Below are positions 11,012 through 25,727 of a stretch of DNA of 26,086 nt, piece by piece (positions within the stretch are counted from its first letter, which is position 1; the number at the start of each line of letters is the position of its first letter). Position numbers and translations under genes: made by a program. The stretch is from IMG/VR virus record IMGVR_UViG_3300025122_000132, positions 1-26,086 of that record, one strand, 5' to 3'. The notes under the pieces are model-generated. The model was not told the origin of the DNA, ran no database searches, and saw nothing but the letters and a program-made list of their open reading frames with translations. Source of the stretch: a virus.

Positions 11012-12570
11012 TACATCACACCTCCAGGCACCCAAAGATAGTCAGTCCTAAACCATTTCACTGTTTGGTCGCTCGTCGCTCCCCGCACCCTCGCGCTCAC
11101 GGTGATGCCCGATCCTGCCGCGCCCCTCATCTGCATCTGGGGCGAGGTTTCCGGCGCCCATGAGGACGTGTCCCATGTGGCGGTATCCCAGGCGGACCCA
11201 ACCGTCCCGGCGGTGACCTGCTGTGCCACCGTGGACTGCTCGAAATCGAAGGCGATATCGACGCCGAGAGAGAGGCTGCCCTGGGAGGTCATAGCGAACC
11301 TCACGCCGACGAGCTTCTTCACGTTCGGCTGCCCAAGATTGTCCCAAGTAGTTTCGGCATCCCACGCGATTGCCGATCCATCATCATTGTCGCCCGAGAA
11401 CGCTTTATATACCTGCCCGCCGCCGCCGCCGAAATACACATCACCGTTATAGGTTCCGAGGCTGCGGGCATTCCATGAGTCAAACTTCGTCCACGCCTGG
11501 GTGGCGAGGTTCAGAACGTGCTGATGAAACGTAGTCGTATTCACTGGCACGTTAAATATGGCGAACCGCCTACTCCGCACCGCGCACCATCCAGCGTTCG
11601 CGCCGTACAGGACCTGTGCGCTGTCGGCGGCCCCCACCATCTTGGACTCCTGGGCGGGCGTGGTTCCGGCCTTGAGAGTATTGGCCGTGATGCGCTTATA
11701 GTCGCCCCCCAGAAGGCCCATGAGGTCGCCGCCGTGGTTGATGAATGTGTCGCGGCCCGTGGGTGCGCCCATGTCATAGACGCCCTTGAGCGCCCAGGCG
11801 TCGGCACTAGAAGGATCTGTCCCGGCATAGACGATCACCTGCCCGGTGGACATTATGACGCAGAAGAAATCGTCCTCGCCCGCGCCGCCGTCGAATGTCC
11901 AGGTCTCGATGGCGGTGATCTTCCCGCCCCTCGATGCCACGGCCCCGAGCTTGGAAAGTGAGAACTTCGTCATCGTGCCGCCAAGTGCCAGCGCCGCCGA
12001 ATACCAGAAGTCCTGCGAGTCATCCTCCCAGACGATGGAGACGCCCTTGAACGCCATGATGCCGATGATGTTGGCGACAGTGAGACCCGATCCCGAGATG
12101 GAGAGCGCACCCCAGGTAGTCCCATCGTATTCCTGCGGCGCGTTCGCGCCGTCCACGAAGGCGATGGACCCGTTCATGTTCACCCAATCCCACCGCCCAT
12201 TACTCGTCAGGCCGGACCTCAGCACCGAGGCCGCGCCCGCGCTCGTGGCGTCGTATGCCGCCGTGTCGTCGAAGGCGATCATCTTCTGGGTGGCGCCGTT
12301 GTTGAATTCTGCAATCGTCAGCACGTCGCCAGATCCGACGCCGGTGGCGTGTTCCGTGTAGCCCTGCCTGACCGTCAGGCCCCCGTAGTCGGGTATCCAG
12401 TTCAGGAGCGTCCGGGCGTCCTCCAGGGCCATATTATCGAAGGTGTCGCGGGTGTTGAGTCCACCTATGGGCGCTTCGCGCTGGCGAAGGTTGGCCGATT
12501 GGCCCGATCCCCGTGGATATATCCTCGATGCCTTCGACTGCGCTATCCTGATCGCGTTTGCAACGCTCAT
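11011..12570 (-). CDS. P22 gp10-like tail hub / DNA stabilisation protein candidate
   Basis: The protein has 519 residues from ATG 12570, which overlaps the upstream stop as TAATG. It is almost entirely beta-rich with repeated Trp/Gly/Asp turns (GGLTVRQGYTEHATG, FVDGANAPQEYDGTTWG, WDTATWDTSSWAPE), consistent with a beta-propeller or barrel. The N-terminal segment EAPIGGLNTRDTFDNMALED leading into ALLNWIPDYGG-like sequence (here RTLLNWIPDYGGLTVRQGY) is characteristic of phage structural proteins placed between the adaptor and the ejection proteins, the location of gp10 in P22. It probably sits under the portal ring, closes the packaged head and links to the tail. The assignment rests on position and fold pattern, and a distinct minor tail protein is the main alternative. 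Confidence 0.65.
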   Translation of the reverse strand: MSVANAIRIAQSKASRIYPRGSGQSANLRQREAPIGGLNTRDTFDNMALEDARTLLNWIPDYGGLTVRQGYTEHATGVGSGDVLTIAEFNNGATQKMIAFDDTAAYDATSAGAASVLRSGLTSNGRWDWVNMNGSIAFVDGANAPQEYDGTTWGALSISGSGLTVANIIGIMAFKGVSIVWEDDSQDFWYSAALALGGTMTKFSLSKLGAVASRGGKITAIETWTFDGGAGEDDFFCVIMSTGQVIVYAGTDPSSADAWALKGVYDMGAPTGRDTFINHGGDLMGLLGGDYKRITANTLKAGTTPAQESKMVGAADSAQVLYGANAGWCAVRSRRFAIFNVPVNTTTFHQHVLNLATQAWTKFDSWNARSLGTYNGDVYFGGGGGQVYKAFSGDNDDGSAIAWDAETTWDNLGQPNVKKLVGVRFAMTSQGSLSLGVDIAFDFEQSTVAQQVTAGTVGSAWDTATWDTSSWAPETSPQMQMRGAAGSGITVSARVRGATSDQTVKWFRTDYLWVPGGVM

Positions 12571-13310
12571 TATCCGAATCCCTGTGCGGGCGTTTCTGCT
12601 CCAAGCACGACCGCATCGACATTATTCCCCGCCGCACTGAGTATCTTCGTCCCGCCGTCCCTGCCCACCACCCGACTGAACCTGTCGGCTGCCCGCTTCT
12701 GGGCTCCAGCGAACGGGAACCCCAGATTTTCGAGGTATGTGGCCGTCGCCCATAGTTTCACGAGCTCCTCGTCGATCAGGGAGATGTCAGAATCGGATGC
12801 GGTGTCGCCCGACTTCCCGAAGTACTGAGTCCTGGACGAATCACCGTTGAGCCGCACCCATCCGGTAGAGATGTATTCAAAGACAATCGTGTCGCTGCTG
12901 GACGATGGGGCTGTCTCGAACGTGAACTCGTTGTTGTGGGAAGCATTAACCTTGATCCGGTACGAGGGTGTCGTGGAGGCAACCCCTCCCCCGCTCTTGA
13001 TGTCCTGCCATTCGGCAGCCGTGAGCGGCCCGCCAAAGGCAAGCGTGTTCGTCCGGTCATAGGTCGTGGCGAGCCGGAATCTGCTGAAGTCAGAAGGCAG
13101 ATCGTAGGTCGAATCCGACGCCGTGGTGGAGAAGGTATGCTCCCGCGTCATGCGGATGAAATCCGCCATATCGTTCAGTTCCTTGCCCGCCCGGTTGATG
13201 TGGGCAAGAATCCTGACGACCGTCTCGTCGGTGGTGTTCCCGATCACGGTGGCCGGCTTAGGCCATCCGTTCTCGGTAGTTATTTCCTCGACCATCGTGA
13301 GCAGACTCAC
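12570..13310 (-). CDS. Head-to-tail adaptor (P22 gp4-like) candidate
   Basis: The product has 246 residues from GTG 13310, with AAGGA eight bases upstream. ATG 13295 is a weaker alternative. The N-terminal half is helical (TVVRILAHINRAGKELNDMA), followed by a beta-rich middle starting at TFSTTASDSTYDLPSDFSRF, and a helical end (EELVKLWATATYLENLGFPF, then RAADRFSRVVGRDGG). A helical bundle followed by the YDLPSDF-type strand is typical of phage adaptor proteins that dock on the portal. It lies between the coiled-coil gene and the gp10-like gene, which supports an adaptor role. I see no muramidase motif, although gp4 of P22 has such an activity. Confidence 0.65.
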   Translation of the reverse strand: MSLLTMVEEITTENGWPKPATVIGNTTDETVVRILAHINRAGKELNDMADFIRMTREHTFSTTASDSTYDLPSDFSRFRLATTYDRTNTLAFGGPLTAAEWQDIKSGGGVASTTPSYRIKVNASHNNEFTFETAPSSSSDTIVFEYISTGWVRLNGDSSRTQYFGKSGDTASDSDISLIDEELVKLWATATYLENLGFPFAGAQKRAADRFSRVVGRDGGTKILSAAGNNVDAVVLGAETPAQGFG

Positions 13311-13343: not shown

Positions 13344-14087
13344 TTATGCCGCCAGATTGTCCTTCTTCGTCGCCTTCTTGGTGGCCCTTTTCAGCAGCTC
13401 CTCAATGTCCGCGCCAGCGGGAACGGACCACCCCTTATCGGCGAGGACATCCTTGATCACCTTCCTGATGGCGTCAGCCTCCCCGCCACCCCGGCTACTC
13501 ATCTCGGCTCCCTCAAGTTCGGTCACCCGCTCCTTGAGCCGGTCACGCTCGCCCGTCAGGCTTTCGGTGTCCTGCTTCAAGACGGCGAGCTCCTCTTCGA
13601 GTGTCTTTGTCCGCTCCTCGAAGGTGTCCGCCCGCTCGGCGGTGTTCGACCACTTGAGAACATTGTGCTGCAATTCCGTCGAGTCGGGTCCGAGTTGATG
13701 GAGCGCGGTATCGGGAAGCGAGAGGAACGCCTCGACGGTGTTGATGTTCTTCGCCTTGAGCCGGGGCCGCCACGACACCGGAATGACGGCGCAGGCTTCT
13801 ACCGGCGTTCCATCCTGGGCAATAGTCTCCTTGTTCTCGAAGGATACCCATTGTTCGGGCCATCGCAGCTTATGCTCCATCGTCACCTTGGTGTCGGGCC
13901 GCTCCAGGTTAATGCCCGGTATGAGTATCTCGACAAACGGCACCTCCCGGTATTTCTCGATCCCGCCCGCCTCCTCTGTGGCCTTCGGGTCCAGGATGGC
14001 CCGCATATAAAAACGTGGGAACGCCGTGTCATCCTGGTTCTTGCCCTGGGCGCGATCAACTGCTTCCTCGAACGTGTCGAGTTCCAT
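13344..14087 (-). CDS. Coiled-coil virion-associated protein of unknown function
   Basis: The protein has 247 residues from ATG 14087. The ribosome binding motif GGAAAGGGGAGAA lies about nine bases upstream at 14104-14092. Residues 1-105 are a mixed globular domain (VPFVEILIPGIN, LRWPEQWVSFENKE). Residues about 110-135 (LKAKNINTVEAFLSLPDTAL) resemble a small helix-hairpin-helix type module. Residues about 150-195 form a strong coiled coil (TLEEELAVLKQDTESLTGER), and the C-terminus is Lys-rich (KRATKKATKKDNLAA), which could contact DNA or capsid. Its position between head genes and the adaptor suggests a head-completion or assembly role. No specific family is assigned. Confidence 0.65.
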   Translation of the reverse strand: MELDTFEEAVDRAQGKNQDDTAFPRFYMRAILDPKATEEAGGIEKYREVPFVEILIPGINLERPDTKVTMEHKLRWPEQWVSFENKETIAQDGTPVEACAVIPVSWRPRLKAKNINTVEAFLSLPDTALHQLGPDSTELQHNVLKWSNTAERADTFEERTKTLEEELAVLKQDTESLTGERDRLKERVTELEGAEMSSRGGGEADAIRKVIKDVLADKGWSVPAGADIEELLKRATKKATKKDNLAA

Positions 14088-14105: not shown

Positions 14106-14226
14106 TCAGTTAGATGGCAGGGGCCGAGACTGGCCGTGGAAAGGGCGTTCGGACCACCCCGGCCCCTGCGTCACAGCGCCCCCCCAGGAGGCGCCGATCT
14201 CTTGCCGGGGGAACGCATCCCCCTTT
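14106..14226 (-). other. Likely true C-terminal reading frame of the MptE-like/methyltransferase gene
   Basis: After Lys461 of the upstream enzyme the annotated frame turns into Arg/Pro/Gly-rich sequence. Leaving out one G of the run at 14219-14223 switches to a frame reading GDAFPRQEIGASWGGAVTQG, then PGWSERPFHGQSRPL, ending in TGA at 14108-14106. That frame has more GC-rich third positions and a more protein-like composition. The run sits in a small hairpin (GGGGGA TGCGT TCCCCC). A +1 frameshift or an assembly indel would explain this. Confidence 0.45.
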
Positions 14227-15606
14227 CCACATCGATAGCCTAACGTGATGCCTGCCGGTAGCGACCCTTATCACCGACCAATATTTTCTGGCCAACCTTT
14301 CCCACCACTCCGCGCCCCTGACCGTCAGATGCAAAACCTCCCCGATAGTGCGTCCGAAGGTATCCGGCACGGTGGCAATCTGAAAAAACGCCCCTCGTAG
14401 GGTTTTTTCATAAATCAACCCCATGACTTCACTTACCCGTCCGGGGGGGATGTGTTCCATCACGTCGCAGCAGAAGGCATAATCGGTGGCGGGCAAGGCC
14501 GTCATGTCGTCCTCGTCCCACAAGCAGGCCCGGAACACATCCCGCTTGCCTCGATGGGAATTGGTGGCGATATCACACCCATAGACCTTCACGCCCGCCT
14601 CGGCGAAGATATCCATCGCCTTGCCTTCGCCGCACCCGTAATCCATAAGCGAACCCTTGATCTCCATCGCAGACAAAACAGAGGGGGCCAATTCTGCTCC
14701 AGGGGAATAGTCCCGGTACATATCATTCCCCCAGATTTCTTCGTTCTTGGCACTGGCTATCTGCTTTTCGGTCATGCTTAAAGCCTTGTCCTTCTTGGCC
14801 TGAACTCTGGCGCCCTCCTTGAGTATGGCCGATATGAGGCCGTCACCATGCACCCTCATGGTGACATGGGGATGGATAACCTTTATCACCCGCTGGAAGT
14901 CCTGGGCCTGGAGAAGCATCCACGGCTTGCATATGAACGACTCGCCTCCCACATAAATAGGGTCGGGCCACACTTCCTTGCTGTCGTTCCAGGGCTGGTC
15001 ATACGCATGGTGCTTGCCGTCCATCACGCACGAATCGAGACCGAAGAACTCGAAATCCCGGAACCCCATGTTGAATCCTGACACCAATGCTTGAATTGCC
15101 ACGCTCGATCCCGAAGCGGCCTGTTTCCCGTCGTTGGCGGTCAAGAGCTTCCCGCCCTTCACCATCCTGCCGTGAGCGGCGATCTCGTCCACGTTAGCGT
15201 TCACGTCCCACACCCGGACGTCGTATTCGCCATCCGCGAACCGTTCAAACACGGAAGGATGGCACCGGGAGGCTATCAAGTGGATGGTGTCGGGGTGCAA
15301 TTCGGTCAGAAATTTATGGTTGTTCTCGTCCGTGTCCATGATCATCATGGCCCAGGGAATAATCTTTCTCTTGAGCAGGTATTGATAAGACCCGTTACAG
15401 GCTAGAATTTTTGCGCCCTGCTGGTAGAGGAACATCAGATCAACAATCGAATGTCCAAGGGAAGGGCCTCCCGCAACGACAACAAGGGTGCCCTCGCCCT
15501 CGGGCATACTGGCCGAGTACCCCAACGAATGGGCAAACTCCCGGTTTCTCTCAAGCTCCACCGGGTCGCCGATATATTTAGACTTAATTTCCACGGGGTG
15601 CATCAT
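14110..15606 (-). CDS. Two-domain MptE-like (DUF115) and SAM-dependent methyltransferase enzyme
   Basis: The protein has 498 residues from ATG 15606 (MMHPVEIKSK; Met2 is equally possible), with GAGAGG just upstream. Residues 40-260 resemble the MptE-like/DUF115 fold: a glycine motif VVAGGPSL at 43-50, ILACNGS at 67-73, and MDTDENNH at 90-97. This family includes pterin pyrophosphokinases and the Maf proteins involved in flagellin glycosylation. Residues 315-445 form a class I methyltransferase: MDYGCGEG at 321-328 (SAM binding), VYGCDIA at 341-347, and DVMEHIPPG at 381-389. Its placement right after the coat and decoration genes hints at modification of virion or surface sugars, which is inference. 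The last ~36 residues are probably misread because of a frame change at 14219-14223. Confidence 0.7.
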   Translation of the reverse strand: MMHPVEIKSKYIGDPVELERNREFAHSLGYSASMPEGEGTLVVVAGGPSLGHSIVDLMFLYQQGAKILACNGSYQYLLKRKIIPWAMMIMDTDENNHKFLTELHPDTIHLIASRCHPSVFERFADGEYDVRVWDVNANVDEIAAHGRMVKGGKLLTANDGKQAASGSSVAIQALVSGFNMGFRDFEFFGLDSCVMDGKHHAYDQPWNDSKEVWPDPIYVGGESFICKPWMLLQAQDFQRVIKVIHPHVTMRVHGDGLISAILKEGARVQAKKDKALSMTEKQIASAKNEEIWGNDMYRDYSPGAELAPSVLSAMEIKGSLMDYGCGEGKAMDIFAEAGVKVYGCDIATNSHRGKRDVFRACLWDEDDMTALPATDYAFCCDVMEHIPPGRVSEVMGLIYEKTLRGAFFQIATVPDTFGRTIGEVLHLTVRGAEWWERLARKYWSVIRVATGRHHVRLSMWKGGCVPPARDRRLLGGRCDAGAGVVRTPFPRPVSAPAI

Positions 15607-15619
15607 ATGCCCTCTCGTC

Positions 15620-15645
15620 GGGGGGCGGAGTTTCCCCCGCCCCCC
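15620..15645 (-). terminator. GC-rich hairpin after the coat/decoration genes
   Basis: A perfect nine-base stem (GGGGGGCGG at 15620-15628 with CCGCCCCCC at 15637-15645) and an eight-base loop lie six bases after the decoration gene stop and before the next ribosome binding site. No U-tract follows on the minus strand, so it may attenuate or process the transcript rather than stop it fully. It would help keep coat mRNA separate from the downstream enzyme. Confidence 0.5.
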
Positions 15646-15651
15646 TGAGAA

Positions 15652-16152
15652 TTACACCGCCTCGACGTGCATACCGTTCATGGAAATCAACTCCACGGCG
15701 GTCACGCCCCCTCCCGACGCAGCCGTCACCGCAACCACACCATCGATCCGGGTGGACCCACTGGACTGATCGTCCAGTTTGCCAGCCGTCCCGGAGGTGT
15801 AGAGCGAGATGTCAGCCGCGCAAGATGCGAGGGTATTGCCACTGAAGTTGGTGCCGGATTTACGGACCCAACCAAACTCATTGTCTGCCAGCGCGACATC
15901 GGCGGCTACGCCGATACCGTGACCAACAAGAGCCAAGGCAGCCGTGATTGCCGCTACCTCGAAGTTCTCGTCAATGGCGACAAAATCGTTCACCGAGACG
16001 GCTCCGCCCGCGTGAACATAAATAGCCTCGCCGCCATCGTCGAGCGTGACAACGGTTCCGAGCTTGAACTCGTTGCCCTCGTCACTGCTCGTCCCACTCC
16101 CTGCTATGGCTTCGTCCAGCTTCACGCCGGGGAAACCCATTACTTCAACCAT
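15652..16152 (-). CDS. Capsid decoration protein candidate
   Basis: The protein has 166 residues from ATG 16152, with GGAAAGGAGAA upstream (16168-16158). It is beta-rich and Ala/Gly/Val/Asp-rich, with strands such as GTVVTLDDGGEAIYVHAGGA, VSVNDFVAIDENFEVAAIT and GHGIGVAADVALADNEFGWV. This pattern (short N-terminal motif, VS.NDFVAID, GIGVA..ALADNEFGWV, a cap ending in VELISMNG) is typical of small head decoration or stabilisation proteins encoded directly after the coat gene. It probably binds the outside of the expanded capsid. No enzymatic motif is present. A DUF2190-like relation is possible but not established. Confidence 0.7.
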   Translation of the reverse strand: MVEVMGFPGVKLDEAIAGSGTSSDEGNEFKLGTVVTLDDGGEAIYVHAGGAVSVNDFVAIDENFEVAAITAALALVGHGIGVAADVALADNEFGWVRKSGTNFSGNTLASCAADISLYTSGTAGKLDDQSSGSTRIDGVVAVTAASGGGVTAVELISMNGMHVEAV

Positions 16153-16171: not shown

Positions 16172-17134
16172 TTAGGCGATCATCACGCCCTGGCGTTTAG
16201 CGTTTGAGGTTGTCAGATTGCCCGCGAACACGAGAGGGATGATTATCGCATCCTGATTCCCGCTATCCCGCTTCGTGAGGGGCACCATGTTGCGCTTGGT
16301 GTGAGGCCGCCACGAGATGTAGTCCGTGTTCAGGAAATACATCCGGGTGGCGCTCAGATCGCCGTCGCCGTCATAGATGACCGGCGCATTGTTGAACATG
16401 AGCGACTGATACCCGGCGTTGGCCTTCTGGTCGCCCGAGATGCGCTGGATGTCAGTAAGGCTGCCCCAGAAATACTGGTAATACGTTGTCCCGCCGATGA
16501 TGATCTTCGGCAGATCGTTACCACGCTGGCACCGCAGCCACATGACCTGCATAGAATTCTGCATCGTTGTTTTCGATGCCGAGACCGACTCCACCGAGAA
16601 GTCGTAGAGAGAATTCTGCCAAAACGAGAAGTTGGCGCGATTGATCCCGCCGTAGGTTCCCGACGTTGGGGCATCAGCCACCGCAGCCTGGAGCCCTGTT
16701 ACCTGCTTCCCGCTGGTTCCCGTCCCGTCGGAATAGATACCGTTCGACAGGTTGTTCGCCATTGTTTTCTCGGCGTTCCTGATGCGGCTGTCGAGAAGAT
16801 CGAGAGTTGCCTCGATTCCCGTGTTCTGCACCTCGGTCTCAAGGCCCGAAGCCGTGACGACGACCGCCGCCTGCTTCCAGTTGTACTCAGCCGCCGACAG
16901 CACGACCGCCTTGGTGACATCGAGGACTTCATAGCCGCTGTAGTACTTGAACGTCGAGTTTTCTGCATATTCGAGTTCTTCGACGATGGTCCGACCACCG
17001 TCAGCGTTGCGAACCCTTCCCGAACTGTTCAGGCGCTGAAGAAGTGCGTTGCCATTAGTGACGTTGTCCGCCGTTTTCTTCGAGCGTTTCCGAATTGTCG
17101 AGGTTACGAGTTCGCTCAGGTTTGGATCTGCCAA
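16172..17134 (-). CDS. Major capsid protein
   Basis: The protein has 320 residues. The frame starts at TTG 17134: an in-frame TAG lies two codons upstream, and there is no ATG or GTG before residue ~131, so TTG is required. The ribosome binding motif GGAAAGGGAGAA is unusually far away (about 14 bases). An N-terminal helical arm (TIRKRSKKTADNVTNGNALL) is followed by a segment with strands (GRTIVEELEYAENSTFKYYS), a long spine-like helix (EATLDLLDSRIRNAEKTMAN) and a C-terminal beta-rich half (TRMYFLNTDYISWRPHTKRN). This layout fits the HK97 coat fold. The position after the acidic scaffold and before the decoration gene supports it. Homology to a particular coat family was not tested. Confidence 0.8.
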   Translation of the reverse strand: MADPNLSELVTSTIRKRSKKTADNVTNGNALLQRLNSSGRVRNADGGRTIVEELEYAENSTFKYYSGYEVLDVTKAVVLSAAEYNWKQAAVVVTASGLETEVQNTGIEATLDLLDSRIRNAEKTMANNLSNGIYSDGTGTSGKQVTGLQAAVADAPTSGTYGGINRANFSFWQNSLYDFSVESVSASKTTMQNSMQVMWLRCQRGNDLPKIIIGGTTYYQYFWGSLTDIQRISGDQKANAGYQSLMFNNAPVIYDGDGDLSATRMYFLNTDYISWRPHTKRNMVPLTKRDSGNQDAIIIPLVFAGNLTTSNAKRQGVMIA

Positions 17135-21159: not shown

Positions 21160-21273
21160 TTAGTCCTTGTGCCTTTTGACCCACCGCTTCATGGCCCACA
21201 GATCGCAGTCGTGCCCTGCCGCCCACACCGCCAGGCATCCAATCGCAAGCCACACCCAGAACATCTCGCTCAT
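21160..21273 (-). CDS. 37-residue membrane micropeptide
   Basis: ATG 21273 overlaps the upstream TGA as ATGA, and the frame ends in TAA at 21162-21160. It encodes MSEMFWVWLAIGCLAVWAAG followed by HDCDLWAMKRWVKRHKD. The first 20 residues form one hydrophobic helix, and the tail is strongly basic, so an inner-membrane peptide with a cytoplasmic tail is likely. The exact ATGA coupling argues that it is a real gene. Confidence 0.6.
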   Translation of the reverse strand: MSEMFWVWLAIGCLAVWAAGHDCDLWAMKRWVKRHKD

Positions 21274-21716
21274 GCGACGGCCTCCCATTTGAGCTTGGGC
21301 TGGTTAGGGTTCAGGTCAATCCTGGGCCTGTTTTTCCGGTTCCATGTGTCCCCTCCCGTTTGACCCAGGAGACGCCACCCCGCTGCCCGTAGACTCACAC
21401 CCCCCTCGGATGGGAGGGTGTATGTGATGAGTCGCTTGTATCCCATCGCTTTCGCTGCCCGCCACGCCGCACCATACAGAATCGAGCAGGCGTTTTTTGT
21501 TCCGTCCGTACAACAGCGGTTGACTTCAAGGGTCCAGCCATTATCTTCGGCCATCGCAACGGGCCTGCCCACAAGGGCGACCCCCACCACCTCGCCCGAC
21601 ACCGACACCCCGATAGCGAACTTGGTCCCTGGAATGGGCTTGTGGTGCCTATGGTGGGCACTTACGAAGGCATTTGCCTCCCGTAGCGTCATGGGGGTCA
21701 ATTCCAGAACCCTCAT
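21270..21716 (-). CDS. XF1762-like protein, presumed GNAT-type transferase
   Basis: The start was set at ATG 21716, which overlaps the large terminase stop as ATGA. A longer open frame upstream is the terminase read out of frame. The product has 148 residues. The segments ANAFVSAHHRHHKPIPGTKF, VVGVALVGRPVA, TLEVNRCCTDGTKNACSILY and GAAWRAAKAMGYKRLITYTL, then SLRAAGWRLLG, match the pattern I associate with the XF1762 family found in phages. The fold looks GNAT-like: a strand near VVGVALVG, then an acceptor-binding loop with GTKNACS, then the helix AAWRAAKAMGY. The substrate is unknown. Modification of DNA bases or of a protein during infection is possible but only inferred. Translation is probably coupled to terminase synthesis. 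Confidence 0.75.
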   Translation of the reverse strand: MRVLELTPMTLREANAFVSAHHRHHKPIPGTKFAIGVSVSGEVVGVALVGRPVAMAEDNGWTLEVNRCCTDGTKNACSILYGAAWRAAKAMGYKRLITYTLPSEGGVSLRAAGWRLLGQTGGDTWNRKNRPRIDLNPNQPKLKWEAVA

Positions 21717-23281
21717 ATCCGCACCCTCCCTTCCTCGGTCCCTGCCATATCCTGCTCGTGGAATAGCTGATCGAGCGTCTGCTCGACGGGCTTGCGCTCC
21801 TCGGGCACCCTCCCGCCCATCAACTGCGGCAGCACCCTGCCGATCAGACTGAGCGCATCCACCTGATCGTCGTTCACCCCCGCCGGGAACGTCATCATCT
21901 CCGAGACCAGCCCCGGCACCCACGGCTGGCTGGTGGGGAGGTAGAGCTTCCCCTGCTGCACCCGGCCACGGATGGACTGCGCCCTGGTGGACTTGTCGCT
22001 GGACGAGGCGAACTGGAAGCGGGCGGTGTATATCTTCCGCTCCTCCATGCGCTTCGTGAGGAAGGGGCCGACGCCTTTGATGATCTGGCCCGCCTCCTCG
22101 GCCCACCCGATGGGTTTCCACTTCTCGCACAGGTCGCAGAACGACTCCACCCATTCGAGGCTCGATGTCTGCCCACGCCAGAGGTCAAGGATGTACAGGT
22201 CATCCTCTGAATCGACGCCCAGGATCATGTGGACGGTGAAGTCGCCATCGTCCTCGGTCACCGCATAGTCCGAGGTGCCGTATATCTGGAGGTGGCGGGG
22301 CCGCTGCTGGTAGTGCTGGAGCCATCGCCGCTGGAAGAATAGCCCGGTCTCGGGGGAGGGCCGCTGCTGGTAGAGGGCGGACCATGAACGCTCCCCGCCG
22401 GGACGGTTCTTGATGCGCTCCAGTTCCTCGGGATCGAACCAGCCGGGCCAGAGGTATTCGCCCCGCTCCCTGCCCAGAAGGTCGCTCGCCGGGTCCGTGT
22501 AGTCGTTCTGGGCAGGGATGCACACCACATCCCACACTGTCCCGTCCCTGGCCGTGATCTTCCCGCTTTCCCCGGCATAGCTCTCGGGCAGGATGCGCCC
22601 GGCAAGATCGTCCTCGTGCCAGCGGGTCATGATGAAAACTTGCCAGCAGTCGGGCTTCATCCGGGTGCATAAGTCATCGACATACCAGTTCCACGCCTTG
22701 TCCCTCATGCGGAGGCTGTCCGCCTCCTCCCTGCCCTTCACCGGATCGTCCACGATGATGCCGTCCGCCCGGTGGCCGGTGATGCCGCCCGATACGCCCA
22801 CACCCCGGTAGTCGCCGCCCGTCGCCGTTTCTCTTCCCTCGGGCTTCTTGAGCGCCCACTTGAGCATCCCCTTCTCGGTCTCGGACAGGCCCGCCCCGAA
22901 CACCTCGCGGAAGGCCCGGCTGTCCACCGTGTTCCGCGCCCGCTTGCCGAAGGTCTCGGCCAGATCCCCTGTGTGGGAACCTCCGATGATGGACTTGTCG
23001 CGGTTGCGCCCCAGATACCATGCCGGGAACACAACCGAGGCATAGGTGGACTTGGCCGCACCTGGCGGCAGGAACAGCATCAGGCGCTTTATCTCGCCGC
23101 GCTCGACGGCTTCGAGCTTCGAGATGATGAGACTGTGGTGTTCGGCCGGGCCGGTCTCGTACAGGATGCGCTCGTCGTCACCGCAAAAGAACGTACAGAA
23201 GCCCTCAAGGGACTGGCGGGCGTACTCGGCACGAGCCAAGGCACCAAGGCCATAGATGTCAGGCTGGACGGTGGTGGTCAT
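21713..23281 (-). CDS. terL: Terminase large subunit
   Basis: I chose ATG 23281 (MTTTVQPDIYGLG), with GGAAAG about eight bases upstream, rather than an earlier in-frame ATG at 23332 whose extra 17 residues look unlike protein. The product has 522 residues. The ATPase has a Walker A-like loop LPPGAAKST at 71-79, Walker B GIIVDDP at 174-180, and a coupling motif TRWHEDD at 219-225. The nuclease domain has Asp338 in YGTSDYA, Glu395 in WAEEAG, and Asp residues at 471-476 in NDDQVDAL, as expected for an RNase H-like terminase nuclease. It cuts and pumps phage DNA into the procapsid through the portal. Its start overlaps the 141-residue gene by 23 bases. Confidence 0.9.
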   Translation of the reverse strand: MTTTVQPDIYGLGALARAEYARQSLEGFCTFFCGDDERILYETGPAEHHSLIISKLEAVERGEIKRLMLFLPPGAAKSTYASVVFPAWYLGRNRDKSIIGGSHTGDLAETFGKRARNTVDSRAFREVFGAGLSETEKGMLKWALKKPEGRETATGGDYRGVGVSGGITGHRADGIIVDDPVKGREEADSLRMRDKAWNWYVDDLCTRMKPDCWQVFIMTRWHEDDLAGRILPESYAGESGKITARDGTVWDVVCIPAQNDYTDPASDLLGRERGEYLWPGWFDPEELERIKNRPGGERSWSALYQQRPSPETGLFFQRRWLQHYQQRPRHLQIYGTSDYAVTEDDGDFTVHMILGVDSEDDLYILDLWRGQTSSLEWVESFCDLCEKWKPIGWAEEAGQIIKGVGPFLTKRMEERKIYTARFQFASSSDKSTRAQSIRGRVQQGKLYLPTSQPWVPGLVSEMMTFPAGVNDDQVDALSLIGRVLPQLMGGRVPEERKPVEQTLDQLFHEQDMAGTEEGRVRI

Positions 23282-23969: not shown

Positions 23970-24523
23970 CCAGCTTCCCCCTTTCCGTTAGAGGTTGCCT
24001 TGTCAGATATCGCCGTGAATTCCGCCTCCAGCACATCTGCCGGCAGTCCCTTCTTGTGGAGTTCCTCGACCTGCTGGCTCAGTTCGGATAGCTGCTTGAG
24101 TTCCGGGATGGATAGCAGGGACGGATCGAAGGCGGCCCCGGTGGCCTCGGGTATCTCGTCCCGGTGGACGGCCTCGCGTTCACGGCGTCCCCACTTGTGA
24201 GGCATACGCCGCTCCAGCTTCCAGGCGATGGCCTGCCAGTTCTCCACCCCTGCCGCGTCGATGCGTAGCAGATCCCGCGTTTCCCCTTCTGCCACGGCCC
24301 TTTTGACGGCGTTCAGAAAACCTACATAAACCGGGTCGCCATGCTTGGCCTGCTTGCACCAGGAATAGAACGTGACCTTGGAAATGCCGCCCATCTCGAC
24401 GGCTGTCTCGACGTAAGACCCGGCCCGGAGCAGCTTGCAGATGATATCCTCGATCTCCTGCGTCCAGATAGTTGAACCGAGTGGCCTGCCGCCTTTATTC
24501 TTGGACGGCTTCTTGGCGGGCAT
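23966..24523 (-). CDS. terS: Terminase small subunit
   Basis: The product has 185 residues from ATG 24523, with GGAGG nine bases upstream and a 29-base overlap with the methyltransferase gene. The basic N-terminus (PAKKPSKNKGGRPLGSTIW) is followed by a helix-turn-helix at about 22-60 (AGSYVETAVEMGGISKVTFY, then SWCKQAKHG), which would bind the packaging site. Residues 94-114 (ENWQAIAWKLERRMPHKWGR) are typical of phage small terminases. The acidic C-terminal half (PELKQLSELSQQVEELHKKG) is a coiled coil that likely oligomerises and contacts the large subunit. The position upstream of terL supports the call. Confidence 0.85.
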   Translation of the reverse strand: MPAKKPSKNKGGRPLGSTIWTQEIEDIICKLLRAGSYVETAVEMGGISKVTFYSWCKQAKHGDPVYVGFLNAVKRAVAEGETRDLLRIDAAGVENWQAIAWKLERRMPHKWGRREREAVHRDEIPEATGAAFDPSLLSIPELKQLSELSQQVEELHKKGLPADVLEAEFTAISDKATSNGKGEAG

Positions 24524-25727
24524 CGAATAGCGCCTCCGGTTGTCCTTCGAGGTGAGCCTGCTTGCCGGTGAACTCCTGCCAGCGCCGGACTATGACATCG
24601 ATGTAGCGGGGGTCTATCTCCATCATCCTGCAACACCGGGACAGGCGTTCACAGGCGATGAGCGTGGTGCCCGAGCCGCCGAAGGGATCGAGGATCGAGT
24701 CACCTACCTTGGATGAATTATTGAGGGCCCGTTCGACAAGCTCGACGGGCTTCATGGTGGGGTGTTCGCGGTTGGCGGAGGGCTTCTTCTCGTTCCAGAG
24801 GGTCGATTGGGTCTTGTCCCCATACCAAGGGTCTTTCTCGCCTTTTACATGGGCATAGAATATGGGTTCGTGCTGGAACTTGTAGCGGCCGAAGCCCCAC
24901 CCAAAGTTACTCTTGGCCCAAATGATCTGTGTACGAACCTCAAATCCCGCCGTTTCGAGGGCCGTCTGCGCCTCTCGCTGGTATGACGATGCGTGGCAGA
25001 CGTAAAGGCTCGCGCCCGGTTTCATGGCTGCGAGGGTGAGGGTAAATGTGCGGGCCAGGAACGTCATATATTCCTCGGGCTTCATGGCATCGTTCTCAAT
25101 CTTCAGGCCGTCCTTCGTGTATCCCTCGTAATCGACGTTGTAGGGGGGATCGGTGAAGCATAGGTCTGCCTTCTCGCTACCCATCAAATTATCGATCGGA
25201 CCTGCCTCGCCTGCGTCACCACACATCACCCGATGCGCCCCGAGAATCCAGACCTCCCCTGTCTCGCTCACGACATCCGGCAACGGTTCGGGCGCATCGT
25301 CCGGGTCCGTCTTACCTTCCGACCCACCCATGAGACCGGCGATCTCGTCATCCGAGAAGCCCGTGAAGTCTATGCCGTAATCGTTATCCATGAGATCGCC
25401 AAGCTCTATCTTCAGGAGTTCCTCGTCCCACCCGGCATTGAGGGCCAGCTTATTCTCCGCGATACGGAAGGCTTGCACCTGGCCGGGCGTGAGATGCGAC
25501 CCGTCGATGGTGGGTATTTTGGCGATGCCGAGTTTCTGAGCTGCCAGGATGCGACCGTGTCCGGCGATCAGGATGTTCTCCGAATCCACCACGGCAGGCA
25601 CGAGCCAGCCAAATTCCTTGATGGATGCGGCTATCTGGCCCACCTGCTCGTCTGAATGGGTGCGCGGATTCCTGGCGTAAGGGATCAGCTTGTCGGTGGG
25701 GACCATCGTGATCTTGGGGTTGGTCAT
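24495..25727 (-). CDS. ParB-like domain fused to DNA methyltransferase
   Basis: The protein has 410 residues from ATG 25727, with GAGG about eight bases upstream. Residues about 8-100 form a ParB/sulfiredoxin-type domain with GHGRILAAQKLG at 56-67. Residues 155-385 form a DNA methyltransferase with DPPY at 193-196, EHPTMKPVELVERAL at 321-335 and DPFGGSGTT at 347-355. Motif IV before motif I marks a beta-class enzyme, most likely an N6-adenine or N4-cytosine methylase. The same fusion is widespread in phages and prophages, where it may protect phage DNA from restriction or mark it for packaging. It overlaps terS, so expression is joined with packaging. The recognition site cannot be read from sequence. 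Confidence 0.85.
   Translation of the reverse strand: MTNPKITMVPTDKLIPYARNPRTHSDEQVGQIAASIKEFGWLVPAVVDSENILIAGHGRILAAQKLGIAKIPTIDGSHLTPGQVQAFRIAENKLALNAGWDEELLKIELGDLMDNDYGIDFTGFSDDEIAGLMGGSEGKTDPDDAPEPLPDVVSETGEVWILGAHRVMCGDAGEAGPIDNLMGSEKADLCFTDPPYNVDYEGYTKDGLKIENDAMKPEEYMTFLARTFTLTLAAMKPGASLYVCHASSYQREAQTALETAGFEVRTQIIWAKSNFGWGFGRYKFQHEPIFYAHVKGEKDPWYGDKTQSTLWNEKKPSANREHPTMKPVELVERALNNSSKVGDSILDPFGGSGTTLIACERLSRCCRMMEIDPRYIDVIVRRWQEFTGKQAHLEGQPEALFDARQEAVQE

Follow-up and report, generated by a model that had tools for sequence, protein, structure and literature searches.

The closest solved relatives of the phage protein reported here are the Maf flagellin glycosyltransferases (PF01973), represented by the Magnetospirillum magneticum structure 5mu5. 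The Maf of Clostridium botulinum accepts both CMP-Neu5Ac and CMP-Kdo and modifies Ser/Thr residues of flagellin (PMC11339370). The central catalytic fold and the GPS and GxD...H motifs of Maf are alike in the phage protein, which is without the extra N-terminal Rossmann-like and C-terminal helical domains, adds a methyltransferase and has no flagellin gene seen nearby. The GT42 sialyltransferases Cst-I and Cst-II have a similar fold (Z about 11); phrog_4603 ('alpha-2,3-sialyltransferase') is matched by a second type of phage fusion and by several separate neighbours of the methyltransferase in related loci, but no match of the protein studied here to GT42 or phrog_4603 sialyltransferases was detected by sequence. 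MptE, the 6-hydroxymethylpterin diphosphokinase (8sd5) after which PF01973 is named, is also similar in fold, with a sequence match in the N-terminal half only. SteA of Corynebacterium and Mycobacterium (9hmz, 9hmy) has part of the fold in common (157-158 residues aligned, Z about 12.7), but is a cell division regulator with other domains and is not listed in the profile search. Among phages, a glycan is described on the coat proteins of Che8 and Rita, two mycobacteriophages (PMC11256854, citing Freeman et al. 2023), with putative glycosyltransferases near the 3' end of the genome of the related phage Maravista (PMC11256854). All three are actinobacterial phages, and the passages covered report no such methyltransferase fusion for them (PMC11256854). 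A literature search found no description of the transferase–methyltransferase pair in the titles, abstract openings and passages that it covered.

The window, that is, the whole stretch of 26,086 nucleotides analysed here, is a viral record with large terminase, portal, coat and adaptor families (Pfam, PHROG), of which the coat and adaptor families are SU10-type. All virion genes of the window lie on the same (minus) strand as the fusion gene. The features are, by position in the window:

14110..15606, minus strand: fusion gene P0001, 498 amino acids (ORF, Pfam, relatives)
14815..15567, minus strand: Maf/MptE-like (DUF115) transferase domain, residues 14-264 (PF01973, alignments, fold match to Maf 5mu5)
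14239..14772, minus strand: class I SAM methyltransferase domain, residues 279-456 (Methyltransf_23, alignment, fold matches)
14113..14232, minus strand: C-terminal tail of about 40 residues, 459-498 (alignment, pLDDT, codon-position GC)
15620..15645, minus strand: 11-bp GC-rich hairpin with a GAAA loop, between the decoration-like and fusion genes (fold -35.3 kcal/mol, z -5.0)
15652..16152, minus strand: decoration-like protein, 166 amino acids (33% identical over 84 amino acids to its positional counterpart in fusion locus L044)
16172..17134, minus strand: major capsid protein, phrog_9953 (4.5e-91; 47% identical to the major capsid protein of L044)
13344..14087, minus strand: 247-residue coiled-coil protein downstream of the fusion (weak coiled-coil family matches; phrog_20268, 2.3e-7)
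12570..13310, minus strand: SU10-type adaptor/tail protein (PF24175, 1.1e-9; phrog_6013, 8.6e-30)

An earlier note, made from the letters of the window, had described an ORF at 14110-15606 joining a DUF115/Maf-type domain to a SAM methyltransferase directly after the coat and decoration genes. The ORF is found at exactly those positions, on the minus strand, with the coat (16172-17134) and decoration-like (15652-16152) genes immediately upstream, and both Pfam profiles exceed their curated cut-offs. The plus strand of the same interval is closed by stops. The same gene is present in four other IMG/VR contigs, complete and 99-100% identical in three of them and partial in the fourth, and diverged copies of the architecture occur in 22 further viral loci (among the best 80 of at least 427 methyltransferase relatives), which excludes an assembly artefact.

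The N-terminal domain matches PF01973 (MptE-like) over residues 37-194 (1.5e-13, 51.4 bits against a curated cut-off of 34.6). The full fusion was modelled with AlphaFold2 using a 21-member alignment (pLDDT 75), and the transferase domain was also modelled alone (pLDDT 80.5). In the predicted full model, residues 14-264 superimpose on Maf 5mu5 with Z 19.5 over 215 aligned residues (rmsd 3.1, 19% identity; VIA-align); the domain modelled alone gives Z 17.4 (VIA), the rmsd over both models being 3.1-3.3. For the domain alone, MptE/HPPK 8sd5 follows with Z 14.0, then SteA with 12.8, Cst-II 1ro8 with 11.3 and the GT29 sialyltransferases with about 10; Foldseek likewise ranks Maf first. A larger alignment of transferase domains was too variable throughout to serve for a scan, and a smaller one was used. 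The sequence profile of 23 phage transferase domains finds Maf at 4.5e-15 over a stretch that includes the GxD...H motif, and finds MptE at 5.7e-5 over positions 28-146, in the N-terminal half. Conserved residues of the domain are G47, S49, N71, D91, G181, G189, D191, H200, Q204 and N207. G189, D191 and H200, aligned to Maf, are invariant across the 23 domains, and GPS is largely conserved. The full-length model of the flagellar Maf PseD (NF050051, NCBIfam) scores 18.4 bits against a cut-off of 670. Judged from sequence, the transferase domain is common to flagellar Maf and the protein as a whole is not.

The nearest solved enzyme to the N-terminal domain is thus Maf, with MptE less close and the sialyltransferases after it. 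The earlier note had held that its reading would fall if HMM searches placed the domain in another family; they did not, Pfam returning PF01973 and both fold and profile leading to Maf. As fold and profile are nearest to Maf, we take the Pfam name as a superfamily label. Were the name to be read literally, the domain would be a pyrophosphokinase or another nucleotide-binding enzyme, as MptE is, and the pair would make a small molecule or a modified nucleotide. The second rank of 8sd5 and the profile match to MptE agree with this reading; Maf is clearly nearer by both sequence and fold, in the profile alignment Maf alone has the GxD...H segment in common with the domain, and general family scans of the window proteins gave no pterin genes. 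We consider it very improbable. Since MptE, a pyrophosphokinase, ranks second, the fold does not by itself fix the donor.

Methyltransf_23 covers residues 317-413 of the C-terminal domain (1.9e-7, 31.4 bits against a curated cut-off of 27; Pfam), and in a fold search this part of the model fits class I methyltransferases such as ChlM, UbiG and NodS. The methyltransferase motifs are intact in the alignment: D322-x-G-x-G, D345, DVMEHIP (381-387), LHLTV (425-429) and WW (434-435). D322, G324 and G326 of motif I (DxGxG) and D345 after strand 2 are invariant in 21 fusions; as the window copy is one of the 21, it necessarily has every residue that is invariant in this alignment. At some positions where at least 18 of the 20 other fusions agree, the window differs; an example is position 134, with D in the window and H in the others. 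Residues 459-498 have no counterpart in the 20 aligned fusions, model confidence is low towards the C-terminus (pLDDT under 50 for residues 451-478) and GC by codon position is flat in the tail (0.73/0.68/0.66 versus 0.56/0.40/0.71 in the body). For these three reasons the tail is probably former intergenic DNA, translated after loss of a stop codon, with both domains untouched.

The place of the fusion gene is conserved, as far as can be judged from gene calls in related loci made with a simple ORF picker. In the lineage of the window the order is coat (phrog_9953), phrog_29386, fusion, one gene and adaptor (phrog_6013), as in L044 and L087, and the coat and adaptor genes that flank the fusion of L088 belong to these two families as well. 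The coat gene product also matches Pfam SU10_MCP (2.6e-4, below its cut-off). The decoration-like protein has no family match of its own (Pfam, PHROG), and its place in related loci is taken by phrog_29386, 'virion structural protein'. L087 is an Isosphaeraceae contig of 649 kb (CAMFLR010000004.1) with the same coat–structural protein–fusion–adaptor order in a head module, which looks like a prophage; this planctomycete is a possible host clue for the lineage.

The hairpin between the decoration-like and fusion genes is terminator-like but without a T-run, and a simple terminator scan does not list it. In 10 of 16 loci the 80 bases upstream of the fusion gene contain a stem of at least eight pairs, compared with 61 of 3915 background windows (1.6%) from the same loci, and several of the related hairpins are followed by T-rich tails. 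The hairpin may lower expression of the fusion relative to the coat, and because it precedes the gene we read the product as a low-dose enzyme.

To find relatives, viral contigs were scanned with a three-member methyltransferase alignment (the window, MW202621 and CRP-9). At least 427 relatives were confirmed and the best 80 were kept; these form 49 clusters at 80% identity (D, transferase; M, methyltransferase). Nineteen clusters are fused D-M, one fused M-D, eight adjacent D,M and 13 adjacent M,D; in two the transferase is near and in six there is none. The transferase domain is therefore fused or adjacent to the methyltransferase in 41 of the 49. Because the D profiles were partly seeded from the same loci, position is the fair control: 48 D domains are found no more than 1.2 kb from the methyltransferase (114.6 kb searched) and one elsewhere in the same loci (296.6 kb). 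PF01973, which is independent of the seeded profiles, exceeds its cut-off in 21 of the 49 records. When the DUF115-first sample and bacterial genomes are included, there are 71 clusters (21 fused D-M, six fused M-D, 11 adjacent D,M, 18 adjacent M,D, three near and 12 none). The methyltransferase is also present in 20 of 79 DUF115-first loci, a count that takes in near-duplicates and relatives of the window itself. Reverse-order fusions are found in L086, L089, L090, L101 and L155, and where the two genes are separate they may overlap by 4 nt (L006, 8567/8564; L058, 5573/5570). In cellular genomes the scan shows the methyltransferase family to be rare: of 38 candidates, 12 loci were confirmed, and four of these 12 are fusions. 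The earlier note knew of no described phage pathway with the fusion in this position. That the fusion is peculiar is not supported, as the pair recurs in both domain orders and as neighbours in many uncultivated phages, whose coat proteins differ.

Searching with the N-terminal domain against 50,697 phage records (tblastn) gave no match, so known isolates yielded the methyltransferase half only. MW202621 has a coat of another family (phrog_247) followed by separate methyltransferase and transferase-like genes. In CRP-9 the methyltransferase follows the coat gene, but a ParB-like neighbour occupies the position where the transferase would be.

A quick tree from a short search, with 65 methyltransferase domains, was used to follow the fusions. 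The D-M label needs six changes on the best tree versus 18 on average with shuffled labels. Starred branches force the conclusion that, on this sequence tree, the D-M fusion needs to have arisen at least twice; one starred clade contains two fusions (L016, L035) and one adjacent pair (L019). For M-D the tree has two changes and one origin is possible. The methyltransferase of the window falls outside the main fusion clade, on a long branch that has no starred support, and its own fusion may for this reason be separate. The pairing bears on whether the domains belong together at all. Cargo genes often lie between conserved phage genes, and the two domains could be unrelated passengers in a slot beside the coat gene, paired through module exchange only; six of the 49 clusters are without the transferase and DUF115 also occurs alone. 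Pairing by fusion and by adjacency, in both orders, with at least two fusion origins and 48-to-1 clustering, argues against chance company, and we hold this account to be quite improbable.

We suggest that the protein is a late, low-dose Maf/GT42-like glycosyltransferase with a methyltransferase, using an activated sugar of the host and favouring a virion acceptor, a reading to which we would give just short of an even chance. The N-terminal domain would transfer the activated sugar to the acceptor. The donor would be a CMP-linked 3-deoxy-2-ulosonate such as CMP-Kdo or, in hosts that produce it, a nonulosonic acid. It would come from the host, since no CMP-sugar synthetase (PF02348, CTP_transf_3) is found in 41 related virus records, many of which are fragments, making this weak evidence. 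The C-terminal domain would then methylate the transferred sugar, or the same acceptor, with SAM. Since the gene is surrounded by those of the head, the favoured acceptor would be Ser/Thr of a virion protein, as for Maf and flagellin.

The same two steps might instead be directed at a glycan or protein of the host surface (LPS core, capsule, flagellin), blocking superinfection or masking receptors. GT42-like enzymes and methyltransferases commonly modify surface glycans, and Gram-negative hosts have CMP-Kdo available. Against this, the fusion belongs to the head module, with a conserved position behind the coat and decoration genes. Phage genes that alter the cell surface are more commonly early or lysogenic ones that come with membrane proteins. 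Although Maf itself acts on flagellin (PMC11339370), we think a host surface acceptor unlikely.

With a virion acceptor, glycosylated and methylated capsids would be recurrent in uncultivated phages rather than a mycobacteriophage peculiarity. This would have consequences for the stability of particles, for adsorption and for recognition, and would also offer a compact Maf-like protein glycosyltransferase. The recurrent pair, fused or adjacent, suggests that phages assemble a sugar and methylate it, perhaps on the virion itself, and gives a functional hint for a DUF115 branch named after a pterin enzyme. The broader proposal is that a Maf-type glycosyltransferase and a dedicated methyltransferase, fused more than once and in both orders, form a widespread phage system and place a methylated, possibly Kdo- or nonulosonate-type sugar from host CMP-sugars on capsid or tail proteins; we place it on the unlikely side. 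The same DUF115 type occurs without the methyltransferase in many marine phages, beside terminase or tail genes, so that methylation is not required in every case and something other than the coat may be the acceptor.

In loci with DUF115 and no methyltransferase (L112, L140, L161 and similar), a gene of about 195 residues precedes DUF115 in several and one of about 147 residues follows it. The latter is phrog_644 in the L112 copy, a family that matches 12 of 52 neighbour proteins. The 195-residue gene was considered as a diverged methyltransferase, but the four proteins scanned have no Pfam match and the idea is unsupported. A second, shorter DUF115-type gene lies slightly downstream of the fusion in three loci (L073:3188-3892, L084:5485-6189, L075:4898-5551). 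The gene directly before the methyltransferase in L060 (4260-4961) encodes a methyltransferase of another family (phrog_6564, 6.9e-61). Elsewhere in the window, the C-terminal part (residues 151-266) of the minus-strand ORF at 21270-22154, beside the terminase gene, matches PF25680 Mom (6.2e-7), the family to which the DNA modification protein of phage Mu belongs. The minus-strand ORF at 24495-25727, which lies upstream of the terminase genes, encodes a ParB_N domain fused to an N6/N4 DNA methylase (phrog_498, 2.9e-153).
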